Origin: a virus
Reading direction: 5' to 3' (one strand)
Length of the DNA: 63,900 nucleotides
Virus record (IMG/VR): IMGVR_UViG_3300022745_000034
Coordinates: 1 to 63,900 of that record
Shown: piece by piece, positions 34,089-63,900 of the stretch
Layout: each line of letters begins with the position of its first letter
Numbering within the stretch: the stretch's first letter is position 1
Program-made: the position numbers and the translations under genes
The notes under the pieces: model-generated
Seen by the model: only the letters and a program-made list of their open reading frames with translations
Told to the model about the DNA's origin: nothing
The model's database searches: none

Positions 34089-34427
34089 CTATACGTGACC
34101 CTGCTCTTTCAGAATTGCCATGCCTGAGTAGACGATTGCGCCCAGGACTTCCTGCTCAAACGCCTTGCCTTCGCGGGTGCTGGCCGCTTCTTCTAGCTTC
34201 TTGGCTGCTTGGCCGGTCGCAAAGCCTCGTCCGTGCATCGTCACGTAGTGAACCCAGGGCTGCTCAAGGAACGGCGTTGTGGCGCCGCCGTGGCGCTCGC
34301 CCTTGCCGTACATGGCTTGCTCGATGGCAGCCACAAACACGGGAAATAGCGGGTGGTCCAAGACTGCCAGGGGCGGCATGTTTGGGTGCTCTACGGTGAC
34401 GGTGTATCCAGGCGGCATTTCGGTCAT
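34089..34427 (-). CDS. Conserved phage protein, 112 aa
   Basis: Has GKGERHGGATTPFLEQPWVH and HGRGFATGQAAKKLEEAAS, then an EVLGAIVYSGMAILKE helix. The H/G/R-rich centre and the GQAAKKLEEA helix recur in phage proteins, some of which are annotated as nucleotide-related, but I cannot place a catalytic site here. The ATG overlaps the upstream stop. I leave the function open. Confidence 0.55.
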   Translation of the reverse strand: MTEMPPGYTVTVEHPNMPPLAVLDHPLFPVFVAAIEQAMYGKGERHGGATTPFLEQPWVHYVTMHGRGFATGQAAKKLEEAASTREGKAFEQEVLGAIVYSGMAILKEQGHV

Positions 34428-34708
34428 TTGAAGAATCCTCGGAAGGCTTTTTCTAGGGCGATTACTGGGCTTTCATCCAGTGCTTCGGGTATTCGTCCCC
34501 AACGTGCTGTGAACTTGCGGCCAGTGCGCGCGACCTTGGCCATGTTGTTGAGGGCGTTGAGGGCGTCGATTGTTTGGCGGTAGGTCAGGCCGGTAAGCTG
34601 CGCGATCTGCTGGCCTGATAGATAGGTGCTGGATGCGTCGATGACGGTGAGAACGCGCATGCGATAGGTCTGTGCCTGTTGGCGTTTGAGGGCGCGGTTG
34701 CTGGCCAT
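34424..34708 (-). CDS. Small winged-helix-like protein, 94 aa
   Basis: The ATG at 34708 is preferred over an in-frame TTG at 34711. The sequence includes YLSGQQIAQLTGLTYRQTID and ALNALNNMAKVARTGRKFTA, which reads as a helix-turn-helix followed by a wing. It is the second gene of the left-going operon, after the VRR-NUC nuclease, so it could be an early or middle transcription factor acting on late genes. This is inference. Confidence 0.55.
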   Translation of the reverse strand: MASNRALKRQQAQTYRMRVLTVIDASSTYLSGQQIAQLTGLTYRQTIDALNALNNMAKVARTGRKFTARWGRIPEALDESPVIALEKAFRGFFK

Positions 34709-34711
34709 CAA

Positions 34712-35122
34712 TTAGGCTGATTCCAGGGCAGGCGCCGAATCTGGGGTGATGCCAAGGTATTGGCAGAGGTGCGATCGCGCCTCCTGGGCCGATCTGGCGA
34801 CCCGGATTTCCCAGTTTTGGCGCTCAAAGTGGGCTAACCACTCTTTTTGCTCTGAACTGGTCGAGCCGGTGGCCGACTTCATTTCGATCACGATGCCGGC
34901 CTTGTGCGGGTTTGCGACCGGCAATATCAGGTCAGGGAAGCCGCGTTTGACGCCCAACGCACGCATCTGAGCGCCTGCCAGGGCATCACGCTTGCCGCCG
35001 TTCGGAGAGTGATGCAGCCAAGCCAGTTCAGGCATGAGCTCACGCACAGCGACCTTGTGGGACCACTTAATGAGCCGAGCCTGCTCGATTTCCTCGCCTC
35101 TGTTTCTGGGTGCTGTTGCCAT
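34712..35122 (-). CDS. VRR-NUC domain endonuclease, 136 aa
   Basis: The core WLHHSPNGGKRDALAGAQMR, then GFPDLILP (catalytic D in P-D) and IEMKSATGSTSSEQKEW (catalytic E-x-K plus Q-xxW) is the full signature of phage VRR-NUC nucleases, which act as stand-alone structure-specific or Holliday-junction-type nucleases. It is the first gene of the left-going transcription unit. TTGAGT-N18-TAAAAT lies just upstream, which would place the transcript start almost at the ATG. Confidence 0.85.
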   Translation of the reverse strand: MATAPRNRGEEIEQARLIKWSHKVAVRELMPELAWLHHSPNGGKRDALAGAQMRALGVKRGFPDLILPVANPHKAGIVIEMKSATGSTSSEQKEWLAHFERQNWEIRVARSAQEARSHLCQYLGITPDSAPALESA

Positions 35123-35143
35123 CCCTCGATTTTACGTGCGCCG

Positions 35144-35158
35144 TTGAGCCATACTCAA
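35144..35158. promoter_or_regulatory. Exact palindrome, possible left promoter/operator
   Basis: TTGAGCCATACTCAA with 6-bp arms. On the minus strand its TTGAGT can serve as a -35 box, with TAAAAT at 35134-35129 as -10 (18-bp spacer), just in front of the VRR-NUC gene. It marks one edge of the 500-bp divergent intergenic region. Confidence 0.6.
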
Positions 35159-35199
35159 CTGCTGTTTGCCTATCCAGTCTTTTTCGGGCGCATGGTTGA

Positions 35200-35506
35200 T
35201 CGGGGTCCAAATTCCGAAAGTTCCGAGTTCCGGGCAAAGTTCTAGAACACAAAACGGGCTTGCAACCCGCATGGTTGAGCCATTCTTGTCCCAAGTTCCG
35301 AAGTTCCGGCAGTTCCCATTATTTCTATCTAGGTGGCTATGAATTGTGAAATAAGGGTGGGGGTGTCGGAACTCGGGAACTTGGGGGTGTATGGGTATAG
35401 AAAAAAATAAAAAGATATATATAAATCAATAACTTACCTTCATACAGGCTGTGGATAACTTGTTCTGGAATTTCCAGAACTTTCCAGAACTTTCGGAACT
35501 TTGGGT
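35200..35506. other. Candidate replication origin: mirrored repeats, AT-rich tract, DnaA box
   Basis: Non-coding. Left blocks with GTTCCG direct repeats lie at 35212-35233 and 35293-35317; right blocks in inverse orientation (CGGAAC) lie at 35366-35382 and 35462-35502, the last holding three 10-bp phased units such as TTTCCAGAAC. Between them are a nearly pure A/T tract (35399-35436) and TGTGGATAA at 35450-35458, the exact complement of the consensus DnaA box TTATCCACA. A hairpin (CGGG...CCCG) lies near 35255-35270. It resembles an iteron-type phage or plasmid origin; an initiator is not identified. Confidence 0.55.
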
Positions 35507-35551
35507 CTGTTGGCAAAAAAAGACGATTTAACTTAAATATTCATCGCCGCG

Positions 35552-35578
35552 TTGAGCTATTCTCAACTATAATTTAAT
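35552..35578 (+). promoter_or_regulatory. Exact palindrome and putative right-going early promoter
   Basis: TTGAGCTATTCTCAA (35552-35566, 6-bp arms) followed by TATAATTTAAT. TTGAGC with TTTAAT at 35573-35578 has a 15-bp spacer; TATAAT itself (35568-35573) is too close to the same -35. The unit drives or represses the early plus-strand genes starting at 35624. Confidence 0.55.
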
Positions 35579-35623
35579 TACGTCGATTTTGACGGACTGA
35601 ACGAACGATTGAAGGAGCGAAAA

Positions 35624-35959
35624 ATGACCCTCGAAAAACGAATGGAACTTGAGCGCCGCGTAGTGCGCAAGCTGATCCGGGTGGCCAAGGAGCACGGCTG
35701 GACTTGCGTGGCCGTGGACGACGGAGAGGAACGGGTGCGGTGCGATGGCGAGGCCGAAGCCATGGATGCGGTCTTTGCTGTGGATGAGTCGGTCATGCGC
35801 TTCAAGCACGCCGACCACAAGGCAACTCACTGCGCCGTGATCGTCCTGGGCAACGACGGCTGGGACGCGATTGCCGACTGGTCTGTGGGCGATGGCTGGG
35901 CCGATGTGATGGAAGCCATGGACGCCTACACCGACAAGCTGTGCGAGGAAGTGTCCTGA
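35624..35959 (+). CDS. Conserved early phage protein, 111 aa
   Basis: ATG chosen at 35624, nine bases after GAAGGAG; a GAACGAACGA leader repeat precedes it. A basic helical N-terminus is followed by WTCVAVDDGEERVRCDGEAE and an acidic C-terminal part with VIVLGNDGWDAIADWS and a final helix. This family of about 110 residues is common in early regions of proteobacterial phages; function unknown. Confidence 0.6.
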   Translation: MTLEKRMELERRVVRKLIRVAKEHGWTCVAVDDGEERVRCDGEAEAMDAVFAVDESVMRFKHADHKATHCAVIVLGNDGWDAIADWSVGDGWADVMEAMDAYTDKLCEEVS

Positions 35960-37209: not shown

Positions 37210-37473
37210 ATGAGTAAGAAAATAGATACAGGTGGACCGGCGTTCCCATTCGAGTACCACAACAAGACCGGTACCCGTCAGCCGGGATTCTTTGACACCG
37301 GCATTCTGCCCCCGGGGGCAAGCCAGCAGTTCGCGGGGCTTTCGCTGCGCGATTACTTCGCGGCCAAGGCGATGCAGGCGCTGGTTCATGAACAGCACAC
37401 AGCAGAAATGATCACGGTCATGGCGATGACCGCTTATGACTACGCCGACGCCATGCTGGAGGCCCGCCAATGA
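37210..37473 (+). CDS. Conserved phage protein with GGPAFP...LRDYFAAKAM, 87 aa
   Basis: AAGGAG precedes the ATG. The start DTGGPAFPFEYHNKTGT, then GLSLRDYFAAKAMQALVH and YDYADAMLEAR, is a well-known phage protein pattern. It lies in the early operon with a 4-nt overlap to the next gene. Function unknown. Confidence 0.65.
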   Translation: MSKKIDTGGPAFPFEYHNKTGTRQPGFFDTGILPPGASQQFAGLSLRDYFAAKAMQALVHEQHTAEMITVMAMTAYDYADAMLEARQ

Positions 37474-40115: not shown

Positions 40116-42530
40116 TCATTCGTCCATAGGGAAGTACACATTCCCCGCATAGTTCCACATCGTCCCAGGCGACACCCCTATCACATTGGCTTCGGCGGCA
40201 GTCTCCATAAGCTCCTTGAACTGACGCGCCGACATGGCCATGAGCTTGAGCAATTTTGAGTGCGGCATGCCACCCTGGGCGCAGATGCTGCCAAACCGGG
40301 CGTCCTTCGCATACTTCTTAGCAGCCTTGATGTACTTGATTGCCTTCTTGATGTCGGCATCGGTCTGGCTGTCAACGCGCTCACGCCGCACCGAGCGTAT
40401 CAGTTCAATGTCGTAGTGACGCACGTACTGGATGGCCCATTCGAGGTGGGACGGAAGCACCTTGCGTGCATGCGGGTCGGATGCCTTGGCCACGATCATG
40501 GCCAGACGCATGGACTTCTCCATGGTTCGGCCCAAGATCACGTCCAGCCCCTCGCCTTCTGCGGCCTCCTTCTCATCATTGAGTTCGGATTCGAGCGCCA
40601 GCATCATCGGCATGCACGACTCATCGAACTCAAGTGCGATGATGGTGGCGGGCATTTCGGCTGGGTTCACGTCGGCCAGATTACCCTGCACAGCCCCAGA
40701 CGTGTGCACCGCCTTGCACCACTCCACAATCCGGGGTGGCGGCTCCGTTCGGTCCACAAAGCGGGTCAACTGGCGCGGCTGCTTGGATTCGACCACAATG
40801 CACCGGCCCAAGAAACCGTCCTGCACCAAGTCGGTTGTCAATGCCGCGTAGAACGTGCCGGGGGTTGTGGCGCCCAGCAACGAAATGGCCGGGTTGTGCA
40901 CCACGCGCTCGATGTTGGTGGTCTGGCTCTTGGAGAGCGTCATCTTTGAATAGGTCGGCGGGCGCATCACGCCATCGAGCCGCCCGAATGCCTCAATCAG
41001 CTTGTCAATGGCCGCCTCAGAATGGGCCTGACCGTTGGCCCGGGACATCTTGAGCAACTTGCCTAGCTCGTCGATGGTGGCCAAGTGGGAAGGACTATCG
41101 AGCAACGCGCTAAACACCGCGCCGGCCGACGTGTAGCCCGAGCCGCCAATGAGCTTGCCCAGGTCAGCCGCCGTGAGGATCTTCTCGCAGCAGCCTTGCG
41201 GGTGCTCCTTACCTTCGGTGGACTTGGCCACCATGACCATATAGAGGCTGGTGAAGTTGCCGTACTGGCTGCGATACGTGCGCCCCATGATGACCGAGCC
41301 CAGTGCAATGGCAGCTGCCACGCTCAATTCGGGCTGTTGCTTAGGCGCCGTAGCCGTGATCCAGCGCGAAATGTCGCCCAGGATGCCGGGTGGATTGGCA
41401 ATGAATGCCGGAATGGCAGGAGCCGGGTCAATGCTTGTTTGTGGCGGGAGCATCACCGGAGCAACCGGTGCGGCAGGCTTGAGCCAGGGCAGTGTTACCG
41501 GTGGTGTTGGGAGTGGTGCTACTGGGGGGGTTAGCTGAACCGGCTTTGCTCCACCGACTGTCAGTGTGATTGGAGCCGGTTCATTGAGCGCCAAGCATGA
41601 GCGCAAAACTTCTGCGGCCTTCTGGAACGTCAGCCCATTGGCGAACATGATGATGTCGATTGGCGTCATGCCATACCCGCCACCCCAATCGCGAATGCCC
41701 TGCGGGTTGATGCCAACATTCGGATTCTTGACGCCGCGCCACGTCGCAATGCACCGATACCCATCGTTATGGGGTTTGGCCGTGGGAATGAGCTTTGTCA
41801 CCCAGTCATCAAGGCGGTTGAGTGCTGCCTTATTCAAGTCGCGGAAGTATTCAGCCTGGATAGACAGATCGGTATTGATCTTGTCGCCATCTTCTTTTGG
41901 CGTGTGCGTCTTCTTCTGGTGCTTGATGTCGGGCTCTGTCTGGTACGGCTCCAGCACGCGCGCCACCTGATCCAGAAAGTCGGCCGGCAATTTCGGCAGT
42001 TCATTGGTGGTCAGAATCGAATCAAGTGATTCCTCAGTGATCCACACATAGCTGCACCCGCTTGGGTGTGTCGTTGGCGGGATCACCGTCTGACGACCTT
42101 CGGCCAGGACATCGAGCACTCGGGCCCCACCCACATCAAAGCTGCATGACCGCTCGCCGTTGTACTGGTAGAAACGGGTCCAGCCCTTCTCCCCTTTCTT
42201 GGCTATGGGGCTAAACGGAATGATGGCCTGGAGCGCGTCATTGCCGCCGTTTGGGATGTCATAGTCCTTGTCCAAGCACGTCAGGTTCGACACCTCGCCA
42301 AGCACGACGCCAATGCCCGCATCGGGCCATGTGTACCAGTGCTCTAACTCAATCTCGGTAGGCAAACGCTTTGCAAAGCGCGTCCAGTCTCCCATGCCGC
42401 GCCAGCCGTGTTCTTGTGACCATGCTCCGGGCTTTTTGCTGCCTGGAGCGATTGGCACCACGCTGATACCGCGCTCTATGAACTTCCATGCGAACTGCTG
42501 GAATACTGATTCCGTCTTTACTTCTGTCAT
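40116..42530 (-). CDS. Primase-helicase (Prim-Pol-like + DUF3987-like), 804 aa
   Basis: The N-terminal 280 residues have AWKFIERGISVVPIAPGSKK, GIGVVLGEVSNLTCLDKD and DVLAEGRQTVIPPTTHPSG, the pattern of bifunctional primase-polymerase domains. After a Pro/Ala/Val-rich linker comes a DUF3987-like helicase: KSTEGKEHP (Walker-A-like, about 440), LATIDELGKLL (Walker B, about 487), ISLLGATTPGTFYAAL and a C-terminal helical part. This would be the replicative primase-helicase. It is the last gene of the Cro-led left operon. Confidence 0.8.
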   Translation of the reverse strand: MTEVKTESVFQQFAWKFIERGISVVPIAPGSKKPGAWSQEHGWRGMGDWTRFAKRLPTEIELEHWYTWPDAGIGVVLGEVSNLTCLDKDYDIPNGGNDALQAIIPFSPIAKKGEKGWTRFYQYNGERSCSFDVGGARVLDVLAEGRQTVIPPTTHPSGCSYVWITEESLDSILTTNELPKLPADFLDQVARVLEPYQTEPDIKHQKKTHTPKEDGDKINTDLSIQAEYFRDLNKAALNRLDDWVTKLIPTAKPHNDGYRCIATWRGVKNPNVGINPQGIRDWGGGYGMTPIDIIMFANGLTFQKAAEVLRSCLALNEPAPITLTVGGAKPVQLTPPVAPLPTPPVTLPWLKPAAPVAPVMLPPQTSIDPAPAIPAFIANPPGILGDISRWITATAPKQQPELSVAAAIALGSVIMGRTYRSQYGNFTSLYMVMVAKSTEGKEHPQGCCEKILTAADLGKLIGGSGYTSAGAVFSALLDSPSHLATIDELGKLLKMSRANGQAHSEAAIDKLIEAFGRLDGVMRPPTYSKMTLSKSQTTNIERVVHNPAISLLGATTPGTFYAALTTDLVQDGFLGRCIVVESKQPRQLTRFVDRTEPPPRIVEWCKAVHTSGAVQGNLADVNPAEMPATIIALEFDESCMPMMLALESELNDEKEAAEGEGLDVILGRTMEKSMRLAMIVAKASDPHARKVLPSHLEWAIQYVRHYDIELIRSVRRERVDSQTDADIKKAIKYIKAAKKYAKDARFGSICAQGGMPHSKLLKLMAMSARQFKELMETAAEANVIGVSPGTMWNYAGNVYFPMDE

Positions 42531-43688: not shown

Positions 43689-44312
43689 ATGACAGTCCTA
43701 TCCCAGCGCCTGCGCGCAGCCCGCAACGCCATCACGCCAGCCATATCTCAACGCGACGTGGCCAAGCGCTTGAACCTGTCTCCCAGCGCCATCAACCTGT
43801 GGGAGTCTGGCAAGACGGAGCCCAGCGCCACGGACCTCGCGGAGCTTGCCAAGTGGTTTAACGTCAGCACCGATTGGCTACTTGGCGTCGAGTCAACGAT
43901 GCCCGTTCAAAAGCGATTCAAGACTGACCCGCCACTGTGGACCGTGCCGGTTGTCACTCCTATGTCGCTGGTACGCTGGCACTGGGAAGCTGCGACGGAA
44001 TTGCTTCAAACAGAAGTAGCATACCCACCACAAACGGCGGCCGCGATACTGGTGTCGAGCGACGCCTTGGCCAGCACCTGCCCCACCGGTTGCTATGCCG
44101 TAGTTTCCAAGGGTCATGATGTCGAGCCTGGGCAAATCGTCATGGCTTCTATCGGCAAAGCAGCCGATCCAGTCCTACGCAAATACGTGCGCGAAGGCAG
44201 CGCCGGATTGCTTCTGGCCGACGATATGCGCTACCCCTCCTACAAGATGGAAACCGGCGTGAAGATCATTGGGCGCGTGACAGAAATCACAGTTCGCCGC
44301 GTCCTGCACTAA
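43689..44312 (+). CDS. CI-like repressor with degenerate S24 domain, 207 aa
   Basis: Residues 4-65 are an XRE-type HTH (ISQRDVAKRLNLSPSAINLW and TDLAELAKWFNVSTDWLLG). The C-terminal half has LexA/S24-like strands (CYAVVSKGHDVEPGQIVMA, VKIIGRVTEI). At the usual GDSM nucleophile position the sequence reads SSDA (123-126), and the Lys region reads VLRKY (162-166) where the active enzyme has a V/L-K-R. So it seems to keep dimerisation and lose or alter autocleavage. It is the candidate repressor of lysogeny. It is preceded by a GAACGAACGAACGA leader. Confidence 0.75.
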   Translation: MTVLSQRLRAARNAITPAISQRDVAKRLNLSPSAINLWESGKTEPSATDLAELAKWFNVSTDWLLGVESTMPVQKRFKTDPPLWTVPVVTPMSLVRWHWEAATELLQTEVAYPPQTAAAILVSSDALASTCPTGCYAVVSKGHDVEPGQIVMASIGKAADPVLRKYVREGSAGLLLADDMRYPSYKMETGVKIIGRVTEITVRRVLH

Positions 44313-55173: not shown

Positions 55174-56181
55174 ATGGCATCCATTATCAAGGTTGGCGAC
55201 CACTGGCGGGTGCAGATCCGGCGCAAGGGGCATGCCTCGATCAGCGAGACATTCCCGACCAAGACCCTGGCCCAGAAGTGGGCCCATGACACCGAATCCA
55301 AGATCAATGACCGGCGCTACCGCGATGAGCGCAGCCTGGACAAGATCACCCTGGGCGAACTGATTAAGCAGTACCGCGAGGAACTGTCCCACGTCGAGTT
55401 TGGCAAGAACAAAGACGCTGTGCTCAAGGCGCTGGATGCCAAGCTGGGCGACCTAACCCTGGCCGAACTGACCGACGACCGGCTAACCCAGTTTGTGCGC
55501 GACCGGCGCAAGGAAGGCGCGGGCGGTGTGACCATTGCCATCGACTTGACCTACCTGGGTGGCATATTCAAGACGGCCCGCCAGATATGGAAGATGCCGG
55601 TCAGCATGGATGCACTGGCCACCGCCCGGGCCTACATGAGCCACGTCAAGATAAGCACCCGGTCGAAGGAGCGTACCCGCCGCCCCACCGTCGACGAACT
55701 TACCCGGCTGTGCGACTACTTTGACAAGCATTCCCGCCTGCCCATGCGCGACATCATCCAATTCGCAGTGGCCACGGCCATGCGCCTGGACGAAATCATG
55801 CGCCTGCGCTGGGCCGATCTGAATGAAGCGGACAAAACCATCGTGATCCGCGACCGCAAGCACCCAAACCAGAAGGAAGGTAACGATCAGGAGGTGCCAT
55901 TGCTGGGCGACTCATTTGCCATTGCCATGCGCCAGCCGCGCGATGCAGACCGAATATTCCCCCATAGCGGGAGCACGATCAGCAGCATATTCCCGCGCGC
56001 CTGTCAGGCCTTGGGCATTGTGGATCTGCGCTTCCATGACCTGCGGCATGAGGGCGTCAGCCGCTTGTTCGAGCGCGGATTCAGGATTGAACAGGTGTCG
56101 CTCGTGTCAGGGCACCGCGACTGGAAAATGCTTAAGCGATATACCCAACTCAAGGCAGCAGACCTCCACCGGTTGGCATAA
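55174..56181 (+). CDS. int: Tyrosine site-specific integrase, 335 aa
   Basis: N-terminal arm-binding-type segment (GDHWRVQIRRKGHASISETF), core-binding helices, then the catalytic tyrosine recombinase domain: R204 (TAMRLDEIMRLRW), H288-x-x-R291 (HDLRHEG), H314 (SGHRDW) and nucleophile Y323 (RYTQL). Complete in length and residues. It integrates and excises the prophage. The attachment site is not found; no tRNA gene or tRNA fragment lies beside it. Confidence 0.9.
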   Translation: MASIIKVGDHWRVQIRRKGHASISETFPTKTLAQKWAHDTESKINDRRYRDERSLDKITLGELIKQYREELSHVEFGKNKDAVLKALDAKLGDLTLAELTDDRLTQFVRDRRKEGAGGVTIAIDLTYLGGIFKTARQIWKMPVSMDALATARAYMSHVKISTRSKERTRRPTVDELTRLCDYFDKHSRLPMRDIIQFAVATAMRLDEIMRLRWADLNEADKTIVIRDRKHPNQKEGNDQEVPLLGDSFAIAMRQPRDADRIFPHSGSTISSIFPRACQALGIVDLRFHDLRHEGVSRLFERGFRIEQVSLVSGHRDWKMLKRYTQLKAADLHRLA

Positions 56182-62400: not shown

Positions 62401-63900
62401 TGTTGAACATTTCCACCAGGGAATTCGACACAGGCGTGCCGGTGGCGGTGATATACGGCGCCTTCTCTCCAAATGTGTCGAACATCCAGCGGGTTTTGAC
62501 AAACAGGTCAAAGGCTTTGGCCGACCCGTTGGGGTTGCCCATGCCCGGGTTTCTGTCCATGGTGGAGTTGTAGGCCAGATTCTTGAACTCGTGCATTTCG
62601 TCGATGAACATGGCATCAATGCCAAGCTCGTCAAACGTCACCACCTTGCTGCGCTGGCCAATGGCCGAGAGCTTGTCCTTCATCTTGGCTTCCAGGCGGG
62701 AGCGAATGCCCTCCATGTCGCGGATGATGTTGCGGTCGCCCCGGCTGCGCTTCATGTCCTCGATGGCCTGGGCCACCTCGTCGATCTGCTCTTGCAGCAC
62801 CGCGCGCTCGGTTGCTTCCGGCAGGCCAATCTTCTTGAGACTGGAATGACCGATCACCACCGCGTCCCAGTCGCCGGTAATTATCTTGGAAAACATGCGT
62901 TCGCGCTTGTCCTTGGAGAAATCCTCTGGTGTTGCGGCCAGAATGTTCGACCCTGGGTACAGGCGCGTGAACTCACTGCGCCATTGCAGCGTCAGGTGAT
63001 TGGGCACGATGAACAGGGGTTTGCGTGCAATGCCCAAGCGGCGCATTTCCATGGCCAAGGTCGCCATTTCAAACGTCTTACCGGCGCCCACCACATGGTC
63101 ATAGAGCACTTGGTAGGACTGCAAACCGCGCCACACACCATTCTTTTGGTGCTCCAGCAGTTGAATTGCCGGGTTCATGCCTGGGAATGACAGGTGCTGG
63201 CCGTCGTACTTGCGCTCAACGATCCGGTTCATCTTGTCGTTGTAGATCGCAGCCATGTTGTCGGCGCGGGTGGCGTCTTCCCAAACCCACTTCTGCCACT
63301 CGGCCTTGATGGCGTTTTGCTTTTCGCGCGCGGCCTCGGTTTCCTTCTCCATCACCACGGTCGTGGTCGTGCCGTCTGGGTTGCGGTAGGTCTTCTTGAC
63401 CACGGCACCGCGCCCCAGCATGGTCATCTGGAACAGTTCTTGAGCGCTCAATTCAGACGTACCGAACTTGCCGGTGTTCAGCGCTTGGTCAGTGCCTCCG
63501 TGGTAGGCCATGAGCCACTGGCCGGTGGACTTCACATAAGCTGCCGTGGCATTGCCGCCTGAAATGTGCTTCACGAACTGCTCGTACAGTTCGTCCGGCA
63601 CAAACGCCGCACCGATGCTCACCGAGATTTCGCTGGGCTTCTTGTCTTTGGGGATGACCTTTTGCAGCGCTTCCACATTGCGCTTGTACTTGGAGTCGTC
63701 CTTGGCCGCCGCCTGGGCTTCTGCCAGCTTTGTCTTAACGTCGCCAGATAGGTATTCGTCGGATGTGACGATGCCGTTTTGCGGGTCGTCATACACCACA
63801 TCACCAAGCTCTTTGATGATGGCGTCCATGGGCTTGCCATAGACTTCTTCCATATAGGCGCCGTCTACCTTGCCCCGGTAGTTCAGCGAGGCCAGCAATG
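56402..63900 (-). CDS. Giant polyvalent virion protein, C-terminal part (SF2 helicase, zincin-like domain, PLxRFG region)
   Basis: Continuation of the gene that starts at 6018. This stretch encodes residues about 1930-4427, and the first 233 bases repeat the window start. A Swi2/Snf2-like helicase contains Walker A VGAGKT (K2203), DEMH box at 2362, TATGTPVSNS, and a C-terminal QREGRIIRRGN motif. Next comes a coiled, charged region, then an HEIVH zinc-protease-like motif at 3361-3365. A perfect PLMRFG at about 3746 is the signature of PLxRFG domains of phage polyvalent proteins (Iyer and Aravind scheme). Two hydrophobic stretches lie near 3940 and 4145. Together with the N-terminal half this is a one-chain ejection, modification and remodelling protein. 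The stop is at 56402, followed by a hairpin plus T-tract. Which parts are active in the virion or in the host is not visible from sequence. Confidence 0.92.
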   Translation of the reverse strand, partial: LLASLNYRGKVDGAYMEEVYGKPMDAIIKELGDVVYDDPQNGIVTSDEYLSGDVKTKLAEAQAAAKDDSKYKRNVEALQKVIPKDKKPSEISVSIGAAFVPDELYEQFVKHISGGNATAAYVKSTGQWLMAYHGGTDQALNTGKFGTSELSAQELFQMTMLGRGAVVKKTYRNPDGTTTTVVMEKETEAAREKQNAIKAEWQKWVWEDATRADNMAAIYNDKMNRIVERKYDGQHLSFPGMNPAIQLLEHQKNGVWRGLQSYQVLYDHVVGAGKTFEMATLAMEMRRLGIARKPLFIVPNHLTLQWRSEFTRLYPGSNILAATPEDFSKDKRERMFSKIITGDWDAVVIGHSSLKKIGLPEATERAVLQEQIDEVAQAIEDMKRSRGDRNIIRDMEGIRSRLEAKMKDKLSAIGQRSKVVTFDELGIDAMFIDEMHEFKNLAYNSTMDRNPGMGNPNGSAKAFDLFVKTRWMFDTFGEKAPYITATGTPVSNSLVEMFNMQRYMQYPTLKKEGLHVFDAWAKQFGSVENVYEVAPSGSGYRQSTRFAKFTNLPGLMGLFNTFADTITLDDLRAQEEAQGKRFPVPKMVGGKPQLFVAKRSPAVASLMGMPKAETLEDGSIRFEADLNDEISVTKDEKSGKWVAKIGNTHIGTFDTEQDARLKIVEKAMTPVVTVDPNSILGRFANLKQLTKETKGKVNALSLTGEANKAGLDYRLIDPHAADFPGSKINLAVDNAMKVYHQWAADKGTQLIFCDMSIPLSARSSYSSKERRLYVRGENGSIEMKRGTMHTAPGFESLPYFIVQKGQKESKQFEVYDAASGVLIGARASKAEAKESAAALLADPAKRQRWIDKREAAGEISQEQIDDFNNDNEVDTEVSEAFNREDIAGISGNAAFSVYDDIKAKLMAKGVPEHEIAFIHDYSTPVAKDKLFKAVNAGDVRFLLGSTPKMGAGTNVQKRLVGLHHIDAPWRPSDLEQREGRIIRRGNELYERDPQGFEVFIGRYATEQTYDTRRWQILEHKARGIEQLRNFDGTINEIDDIEGEAANSADMKAAASGDPLILEETKLRNDVKRLERLQSAHADEVLAMTRKSRDADQYAQKYGPRRLEELAALIATSKKHPLDKEGFAPITVGGKVFKDKEAAQAELNKATSVVRAGMSDGLVVNYRGLEFTFSNRAGWLFASSPTGEIGSWGGTDAFSASGFVQRMKNYVDRLSAAQEDTKASIEKAQKDSVALREQSKQPFAQAKDLEAAREEYKKIQRALLAKGPDVPQSQKTAVANGIEQQKAKLQKLGFGEALGEFFNGSDNAGIDFQALDGADTIEPSNALVKKNPTETELKNVRALNSSLVQYLRANGQTVHDGVLGYVAAEVQGNEAFREIEKAFGQRVQWVLPNPLLSGRERSQFYFFNGANANGINYLLATGNDRPHLSILGHEIVHQLRKDNPDLYDEFVEAVRPFIKPALYKKFLETATAKRAKDADKKHEEFMAEIGSDAFMEPGFWDAIAAKSPELLRKVATLAIDLIKSVLGKVGYTPRTEQYLTDYKKVMEIASQYLGDYAAGKMESSSTGIDFNVRDTMAKVQRDAMQFFGNKDGKSLQTFGLYHKTLSTQYNKALKDRHFGKVFAYVNAMQNEVSLTSIRPAELAPGVLPRVDDVKSAAKQLIRGKRSDNNLQQAADAIFEGTLAGEGVLQGKVWSDAELRARGLNDTGIALYKQGRAAIDASLDEVAAAEAYAMAQSVIPKTMRRQIIDDPRGAEKMIVDEIKKQIKMLDRAIKAAEKMGADEQSAELRAVRSSYLETKRNIDKIFVTAKNLKIAGYAPLMRFGKYTVTVQHIDNHGNVLRDENGESLTEFYGQYETEGEAKSVRSMMEAKYKDRDDIKVTAGTKSQTSHELYAGISPETLALFAEAIGADSAMRKYIELAMNDRSALKRRLHRKGTSGYSEDLPRVLSNFITSNGRHAAQRYYLRDLNNAIKYIPKEKGDVLDEAIRLKKYVLDPNDPAAPLSSVMFAWFLGGSVASAAVNLTQPVMMTAPYLSQFGITTSTKALAKAVPYAMGRKEITDPELRDALKRASQEGIVDAQEIFHLYSVGAQGVASGLVNQLAKIPGVGGKIKAGSEDARARINAFLTLWGSMFAVAEGFNRKLTFLAAWDVAKANKEKNPYAFAVRAVNETQGIYNKVNRPNWSQGGIGRTLMTFKQFSIMYVELLGRMWKNGGTEGKRAAIIMLAVLMLAAGEEGLPFSDDLDDLIDTVGQMFGLDTNMKRNKRRLAYDLLGKGLGDMFLYGVSPYLPLDFSGRMGLGNLIPGTGILKPSNADNRGRQFTEVLGPTAGMAGQIGDAYDAAVEGNTGKAAQNLAPKAIKDLLAAAEMAKKGYSTDTKGRKVIDVGLGDAAVKAVGFQPTVVAQETRKTMPVQQDIALQKHTESSIVNQWVRALADNDTDMAKDAQKRLDDWNRKNPRTAIQITPDQIRNLARQMATDKDTRLIKSAPREMRGRVGLDLSK
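63668..63900. repeat. Terminal direct repeat, right copy
   Basis: Second copy of the 233-bp overlap with the start of the window; position 1 corresponds to 63668. It carries G at 63773 where the left copy has A at 106. Both copies code for the same segment (about residues 1930-2006) of the giant polyvalent protein. Confidence 0.93.

Follow-up and report, generated by a model that had tools for sequence, protein, structure and literature searches.

In the 2014 paper on the pRN1 minimal replicon, proteins that combine a primase-polymerase (Prim-Pol) domain, a superfamily 3 (SF3) helicase and a winged helix were proposed to act at a large stem-loop, which in pRN1 has a 21-nt stem, a 58-nt loop and no iteron structure; a stem-loop was also predicted, as a prediction only, 3' of the replication gene of Bordetella phage BIP-1, to which BPP-1 is described as nearly identical (PMC4234260). 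In the origins of phage-inducible chromosomal islands (PICIs), an AT-rich region is flanked by two sets of iterons, an arrangement said to be absent from other known bacterial replicons (PMC6092414). Here we analyse a repeat block in a 63,900-nucleotide stretch of viral DNA (the window), a single IMG/VR virus record (IMGVR_UViG_3300022745_000034, G000). We consider it likely that this block, at 35205-35502, is the replication origin of the phage and that its units are bound by the primase-helicase encoded at 40116-42530 (- strand); where replication starts, which protein recognises the units and in what sequence the steps would follow is what we infer.

An initial annotation had proposed a candidate origin at this place, and its description of the setting holds: the block is non-coding and lies between divergent units, in a 501-bp gap that separates the VRR-NUC nuclease gene (34712-35122, - strand), a conserved neighbour of the block, from a rightward gene (35624-35959, + strand). 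The GTTCC/GGAAC repeats were also correctly placed, with GTTCC starting at + strand positions 35220, 35227, 35295, 35303 and 35312, and GGAAC or AGAAC at 35368, 35376, 35476, 35486 and 35495. The proposed symmetry has to be redrawn. The tract at 35399-35436, called AT-only, contains G and C (AGAAAAAAATAAAAAGATATATATAAATCAATAACTTA) and is AT-rich instead; units on either side of it share their orientation, and the axis of the mirror is the loop at 35318-35363. Three right-hand repeats are present as claimed, but their spacing is 10 and 9 bp rather than a uniform 10 bp.

Read in the VRR-NUC orientation, the block begins with a left array of AGTTCYRGAA-type units (35462-35502, - strand), including the palindrome TTCTGGAATTTCCAGAA. 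The predicted DnaA box follows, TGTGGATAA at 35450-35458 (TTATCCACA, - strand), which is perfect, is the sole perfect copy in 63.9 kb and occupies the same position in the relative L351/L003. Next comes a conserved AT core, TATATATAAATCAATAACTTACC (35416-35438, + strand), containing a perfect IHF consensus (WATCAANNNNTTR, 35424-35436), of which the window has only three. Two units then form R1 (35364-35385; CCCAAGTTCCCGAGTTCCGACA on the - strand), the first arm of a hairpin; beyond the loop (35318-35363, assigned to no strand), three units form R2 (35290-35317, + strand; CCCAAGTTCCGAAGTTCCGGCAGTTCCC), the second arm, and an outer array, R3, closes the block (35205-35247, + strand; AATTCCGAAAGTTCCGAGTTCCGGGCAAAGTTCTAGAA). 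The 22-nt hairpin arms (35290-35311 and 35364-35385) are 86% complementary and enclose a 52-nt loop; an Rfam search of the region gave no match.

These repeats are real and beyond chance. AGTTCC/GGAACT occurs 8 times in the block and at most twice in any other 421-bp interval of the genome, and the top 6-mer count of the block (8) exceeds the maximum of 7 in 2000 dinucleotide shuffles. An unbiased scan returned this block as the densest 6-mer cluster of the whole window and, as regards the rival origin that the initial annotation had allowed for elsewhere, found no competing repeat cluster. Genome-wide, GTTCCG is not enriched (25 occurrences, 35 expected) and is unusual solely in its clustering.

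We collected about 35 close relatives by a VRR-NUC protein search, independently of the block, and most of them (about 20) share one scaffold upstream of VRR-NUC. It opens with a left array (2-3 units) and an AT core and continues with a pyrimidine tract, R1 with two units, a loop often with CCTACCCCC, R2 with two or three inverted units, and R3 with more inverted units. The core consensus in these relatives, GTAAGTNNTTGATNTATATA, is an IHF site read backwards. What differs is the unit, which is GTTCC(G/A) in the window, L003 and L159; TGTTCC in L174; CTTCCCAA in L164, L167, L156 and L158; GTTCCCAA in L240 and L188; TTCCACG in L155; GTTCTG in L184; ATTCAC in L189; ATTCTC in L177; CTTTTTCA in L161; and TTAGTA in L371. 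Wherever the unit is clear, its count in the block is above that of every shuffle.

Relative to the core, units lie at -66, -57, -47, +52, +60, +117 to +134 and +200 to +240, and a fraction of 0.43 of other phages has a unit within 2 bp of a given position, as compared to 0.18 (maximum 0.24) under a shift null. Unit similarity is 0.71 within a phage versus 0.52 when one slot is compared across phages, a comparison in which picking units by their within-phage motif favours the higher figure. All unit copies in a phage change together, and such concerted change would be expected were they all read by one protein acting in trans.

Site content was compared in 21 blocks, most of which had been found by protein homology rather than by the core pattern, the core serving to register them. 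The IHF consensus is present in 14 of these 21 blocks (0.4 expected) and the DnaA box TTWTCCACA in 7 of the 21 (0.2 expected, shuffle maximum 2), which makes the box an optional part of the block. Folding with DNA parameters gives the R1-to-R2 hairpin in most of 23 blocks (mean z -2.8; -7.4 for the window), but a weak one in L371, L375, L370 and L364. An oriC driven by DnaA was rejected as a description of the locus, as there is a single perfect box and no DnaA box cluster, and most relatives lack the box.

More distant relatives place the block beside the primase. In Rhizobium phage RHph_TM3_3_14B and Sinorhizobium phage AP-16-3, found via primase matches (about 32% identity), ATTCCA units in both orientations lie between primase and VRR-NUC, numbering 8 and 6, respectively, against a shuffle maximum of 5. 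The 82-kb plasmid pC of Spartinivicinus ruber, which is a phage-plasmid by gene content, carries in order a repressor, a Sak4-type ATPase, DUF669, a helicase, Prim-Pol, a 292-bp gap and VRR-NUC; in the gap, ATGTGA units stand in mirrored arrangement and number 10, a count that none of 400 shuffles reached (maximum 5), and Prim-Pol is the sole replication protein in the incomplete annotation table of pC. That pC is kept as a plasmid with this module alone is the best indirect evidence for an origin function. In an unrelated contig, L226, TGTTGACAA units form a mirrored block that is weaker (7 units, shuffle maximum 6-7) and lies directly upstream of a primase and a helicase gene. Taken together, the conserved scaffold, the IHF site, the hairpin, the family-wide enrichment of DnaA boxes and the primase-adjacent location in distant relatives strengthen the origin assignment; the comparative support is strong, while the initial arguments from the DnaA box and the symmetry of the AT tract were partly off.

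Compared with the described systems, the locus most resembles the pRN1/BIP-1 kind. Both have a replication protein with Prim-Pol, helicase and C-terminal winged helix (the last predicted here), and both have a large stem-loop whose structure is kept while its sequence diverges, here with 22-nt arms and a 52-nt loop. In BPP-1, we found that each hairpin arm consists of two tandem 9-bp units (TTGCCTCGT x2), in opposite orientation, between the primase and endonuclease-terminase genes; this is the plan of R1 and R2 in the window. Unlike pRN1 and BIP-1, the window family also has units arrayed beyond the hairpin, together with an IHF site that is conserved and, often, a DnaA box; an early gene cluster lies between origin and primase. 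The stem-loop of the window lies 4.5 kb from the replication gene rather than directly 3' of it, whereas the directly 3' position is found in the distant relatives L390, L392 and L393; we therefore do not claim strict membership of the pRN1/BIP-1 group, and propose instead that the block works alike.

The other likenesses concern the iterons. Units at -66, -57 and -47 and at +52 and +60 around the AT core recall, in complete phages, the PICI layout (PMC6092414), and the reading of iterons by the C-terminal domain of an initiator helicase, as summarised for the Rep of Staphylococcus aureus pathogenicity islands (SaPIs; PMC7581432), would have its counterpart here. In contrast to those satellites, the window is a complete phage with terminase and portal, its primase is of Prim-Pol type and fused to the helicase, and its hairpin and IHF core have no counterpart in the PICI description, as far as the compared part of it goes (PMC6092414). 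P4 alpha, too, is a single multifunctional protein that uses a winged helix to bind the repeats of its origin and that also unwinds and primes (PMC4234260), but its primase is bacterial (Toprim) rather than Prim-Pol. In iteron plasmids, pSC101 and R6K among them, one origin combines iterons, an AT-rich region, a DnaA site and an IHF site or dependence (PMC5043065), whereas here the units run both ways and make up a hairpin; no Rep protein of the pSC101/R6K class was seen in a scanned selection of window proteins. Given the BPP-1 arm plan and the PICI-like layout, we class the origin with the pRN1/BIP-1 kind joined to iteron-origin features: it is best read as that kind plus iteron arrays, an IHF site and sometimes a DnaA box.

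The proposed initiator carries a Prim-Pol domain (PF09250, E 1e-15), a DUF3987 helicase domain (PF13148 match) and, in its last 114 residues, a winged helix predicted by an AlphaFold2 model (H-H-H-E-E order, pLDDT 80); against winged helices the model gave VIA Z of about 10 and a root-mean-square deviation of 1.3-2.0 over 62-70 residues. The C-terminus is accordingly predicted to have a winged-helix fold, with putative DNA binding. The primase-helicase co-occurs with the block in 15 phages, in which unit distance correlates with the distance between C-terminal domains (rho 0.52-0.57, p ~0.001) and with that between helicase domains (rho 0.50); the partial correlation for the C-terminal domain is 0.27 (p 0.04), with p 0.08-0.16 in the 13 phages that have all proteins. 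Residue 765 is A or S with GTTCY units, H with TTCCCA/TTCAC and K with ATTCYC/TTCCACG, a post-hoc lead only. This covariation of unit and initiator is suggestive, a lead rather than proof.

Beside the observed anatomy, conservation, IHF and DnaA site enrichment, neighbouring genes and predicted winged-helix fold, we infer binding, opening and priming because of the domain arrangement and the published models for pRN1 (PMC4234260), SaPI Rep (via PMC7581432) and PICI origins (PMC6092414). Copies of the primase-helicase would bind the repeated units by their C-terminal winged helix, and IHF would bend the AT core and bring the left array beside the two-unit hairpin. Two helicase assemblies could then open the AT-rich stretch, the hairpin or both, the Prim-Pol domain would lay primers, and the host polymerase or replisome would extend these and take over, with DnaA as an optional helper at its single box.

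Several observations weigh against this assignment. In six relatives (L160, L162, L163, L172, L176 and L180) the block is missing upstream of VRR-NUC, and no origin was located for them. The check by GC skew proposed in the initial annotation went the other way, the cumulative skew peaking at about 38-40 kb and not at 35.4 kb, with the wrong sign for a leading-strand excess of G; skew in this genome shifts with gene strand and is uninformative. In the window, other genes lie between the block and the primase gene. Foldseek gave no significant match to the C-terminal domain (best E 0.057), and covariation of the units with this domain had to be rejected as formal proof, being inseparable from that with the helicase domain. 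The winged helices of P4 alpha, SaPI Rep and ORF904 were not among the matches listed in the fold searches, which proves nothing.

A divergent promoter or operator region, in which the units would be sites of a phage transcription factor switching the rightward early and the leftward VRR-NUC/terminase operons with help from IHF, is unlikely, although the block does lie between divergent genes and has operator-like palindromes at both edges, one over a promoter-like -35. A reader for such sites could be sought in a small, conserved winged-helix-like protein of 94 residues encoded beside VRR-NUC (34424-34708, - strand), but its recognition helix, TYRQTIDALNAL, is almost constant in 19 relatives while the units differ, and we therefore rejected it as the unit reader. 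The enrichment of DnaA boxes, and the position of the block between co-directional primase and VRR-NUC genes in the Rhizobium and Sinorhizobium phages and the Spartinivicinus plasmid, also speak against this reading.

A packaging start (pac) or binding region of the small terminase (TerS) would fit the window's family, where the block precedes a VRR-NUC - small terminase - large terminase operon, and L314/L301, where it precedes terminase genes; TerS and unit distances show a weak correlation (rho 0.35, p 0.08, n=10). This explanation is quite improbable, as the block of the Spartinivicinus plasmid adjoins the primase 8 kb from the terminase, the L226 block adjoins primase and helicase, and IHF together with DnaA sites suits an origin better. 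A partition site draws on the resemblance of iterated inverted units beside a bend site to some centromeres, and on the AAA family ATPase and MarR regulator genes of pC; we judge it very improbable, since the window phage has an integrase, no ParA or ParB was seen in the selection of window proteins scanned, and the block accompanies primase rather than par genes. A phage attachment site (attP) with integrase arm sites deserves hardly any credence: attP sites do pair repeated arm sites with IHF sites, and the AT core is near tRNA-like att sequences in L250 and L217, but the integrase gene (55174-56181) lies 20 kb off, no tRNA sequence was found, and the unit arrays of relatives adjoin primase genes.

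The palindromes at the block edges belong to a dispersed set. The 17-bp motif GTTGAG-N5-CTCAAC has 39 strand matches with <=3 mismatches where 16 are expected, a count seen in none of 100 shuffles, and its copies (2171, 16778, 18571, 19537, 19566, 30482, 34046, 35143, 35551, 37180, 43581, 44367, 44405, 46464 and 55045) lie nearly all in short intergenic gaps. This looks like an operator set of a CI-type repressor, comparable to stoperators, and an S24 repressor of CI type is encoded at 43689-44312. The two edge copies, both perfect, are GTTGAGCCATACTCAAC (35143-35159), which overlaps the -35 element of what looks like a promoter of the VRR-NUC operon, and GTTGAGCTATTCTCAAC (35551-35567), upstream of the rightward gene; both are probably operators bound by the CI-type repressor. 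The promoter-like site (35122-35158, - strand) reads TTGAGT, 18, TAAAAT, with its -10 ending about 7 bases before the VRR-NUC ATG, and the VRR-NUC transcript may be leaderless.

Wider searches gave further observations on the locus. In two of the relatives without a block, L172 (G004:C1:613-771) and L176 (G026:C1:1298-1453), a small protein homologous to residues 728-781 of the primase C-terminal winged helix replaces the block upstream of VRR-NUC, and a similar gene was seen by eye at that place in L160, L162, L163 and L180. A second plan, with two IHF-type cores about 82 bp apart, each followed by triple 9-bp units (AGGGGC or GGGTCA), is found in L216, L219, L235, L257 and L310. The 20-mer GTAAGTWRTTGATWTATATA was rejected as an origin-specific signature, since it matches >119 viral contigs, in many of which it lies near a promoter or an att-like sequence, and a strong IHF site is the better reading; in L217 and L250 this IHF-type 20-mer adjoins tRNA-end-like sequences, as in phage attachment sites. 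Searching viral contigs with 16-mers around the DnaA box returned L003/L020 (one contig) as the only true relative, the others being ordinary TTATCCACA palindromes. Blastn of the block against named phages gave low-complexity AT matches only; a 29-kb stretch of Achromobacter phage CF418P1, which has the closest portal, lacks both the TAAGTNNTTGAT core and any cluster of units comparable to this one, and repeats in an intergenic region of Pseudoalteromonas phage C7 are not above shuffles.

The first 233 bases of the window recur at 63668-63900, and the genome is therefore closed at 63,667 bp, with a coding share of 94%. It is that of a temperate phage, encoding a terminase, a portal that resembles those of F116-, Stx- and Vibrio podophages, a Sak4-like annealing protein, a protein like single-stranded-DNA-binding protein (SSB), a Cas4-type exonuclease and a helicase. 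Its host group is probably Burkholderiales; the relative L155 is a prophage in Comamonas odontotermitis, and a search for primase prophages among 399 genomes of this host's family gave 2 matches. If the contig is closed at the terminal repeat, a junction-spanning gene of about 4,427 codons runs on the - strand from 6018 down to 1 and from 63667 down to 56402, a size that we take to be close to that of the giant virion proteins in Bcep22-like phages. Within a small early gene, 46 bp (37345-37390) are 93% identical to Pseudomonas phages PACT201, phita81A, 5371 and 5399, the sole blastn similarity of that region to named phages.

We found no described origin for these phages or the phage-plasmid in the open-access literature, and an earlier account elsewhere is possible. 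More broadly, the blocks might represent a widespread class of origin whose scaffold stays fixed in its IHF bend, its two-unit hairpin and its distances while the unit and the winged helix of the primase-helicase change together; we advance this tentatively, at somewhat less than even chances. If true, P4/PICI iteron origins and the pRN1/BIP-1 stem-loop origin would be joined, the arms of the stem being themselves iterated units, and about ten unit specificities on one scaffold would form a natural set in which to learn how winged helix and DNA unit correspond and how initiator and site change together. A temperate phage family and a phage-plasmid would thereby gain a concrete origin and a named initiator, and the replication systems of related phages would be blind to one another, which could underlie replication incompatibility.
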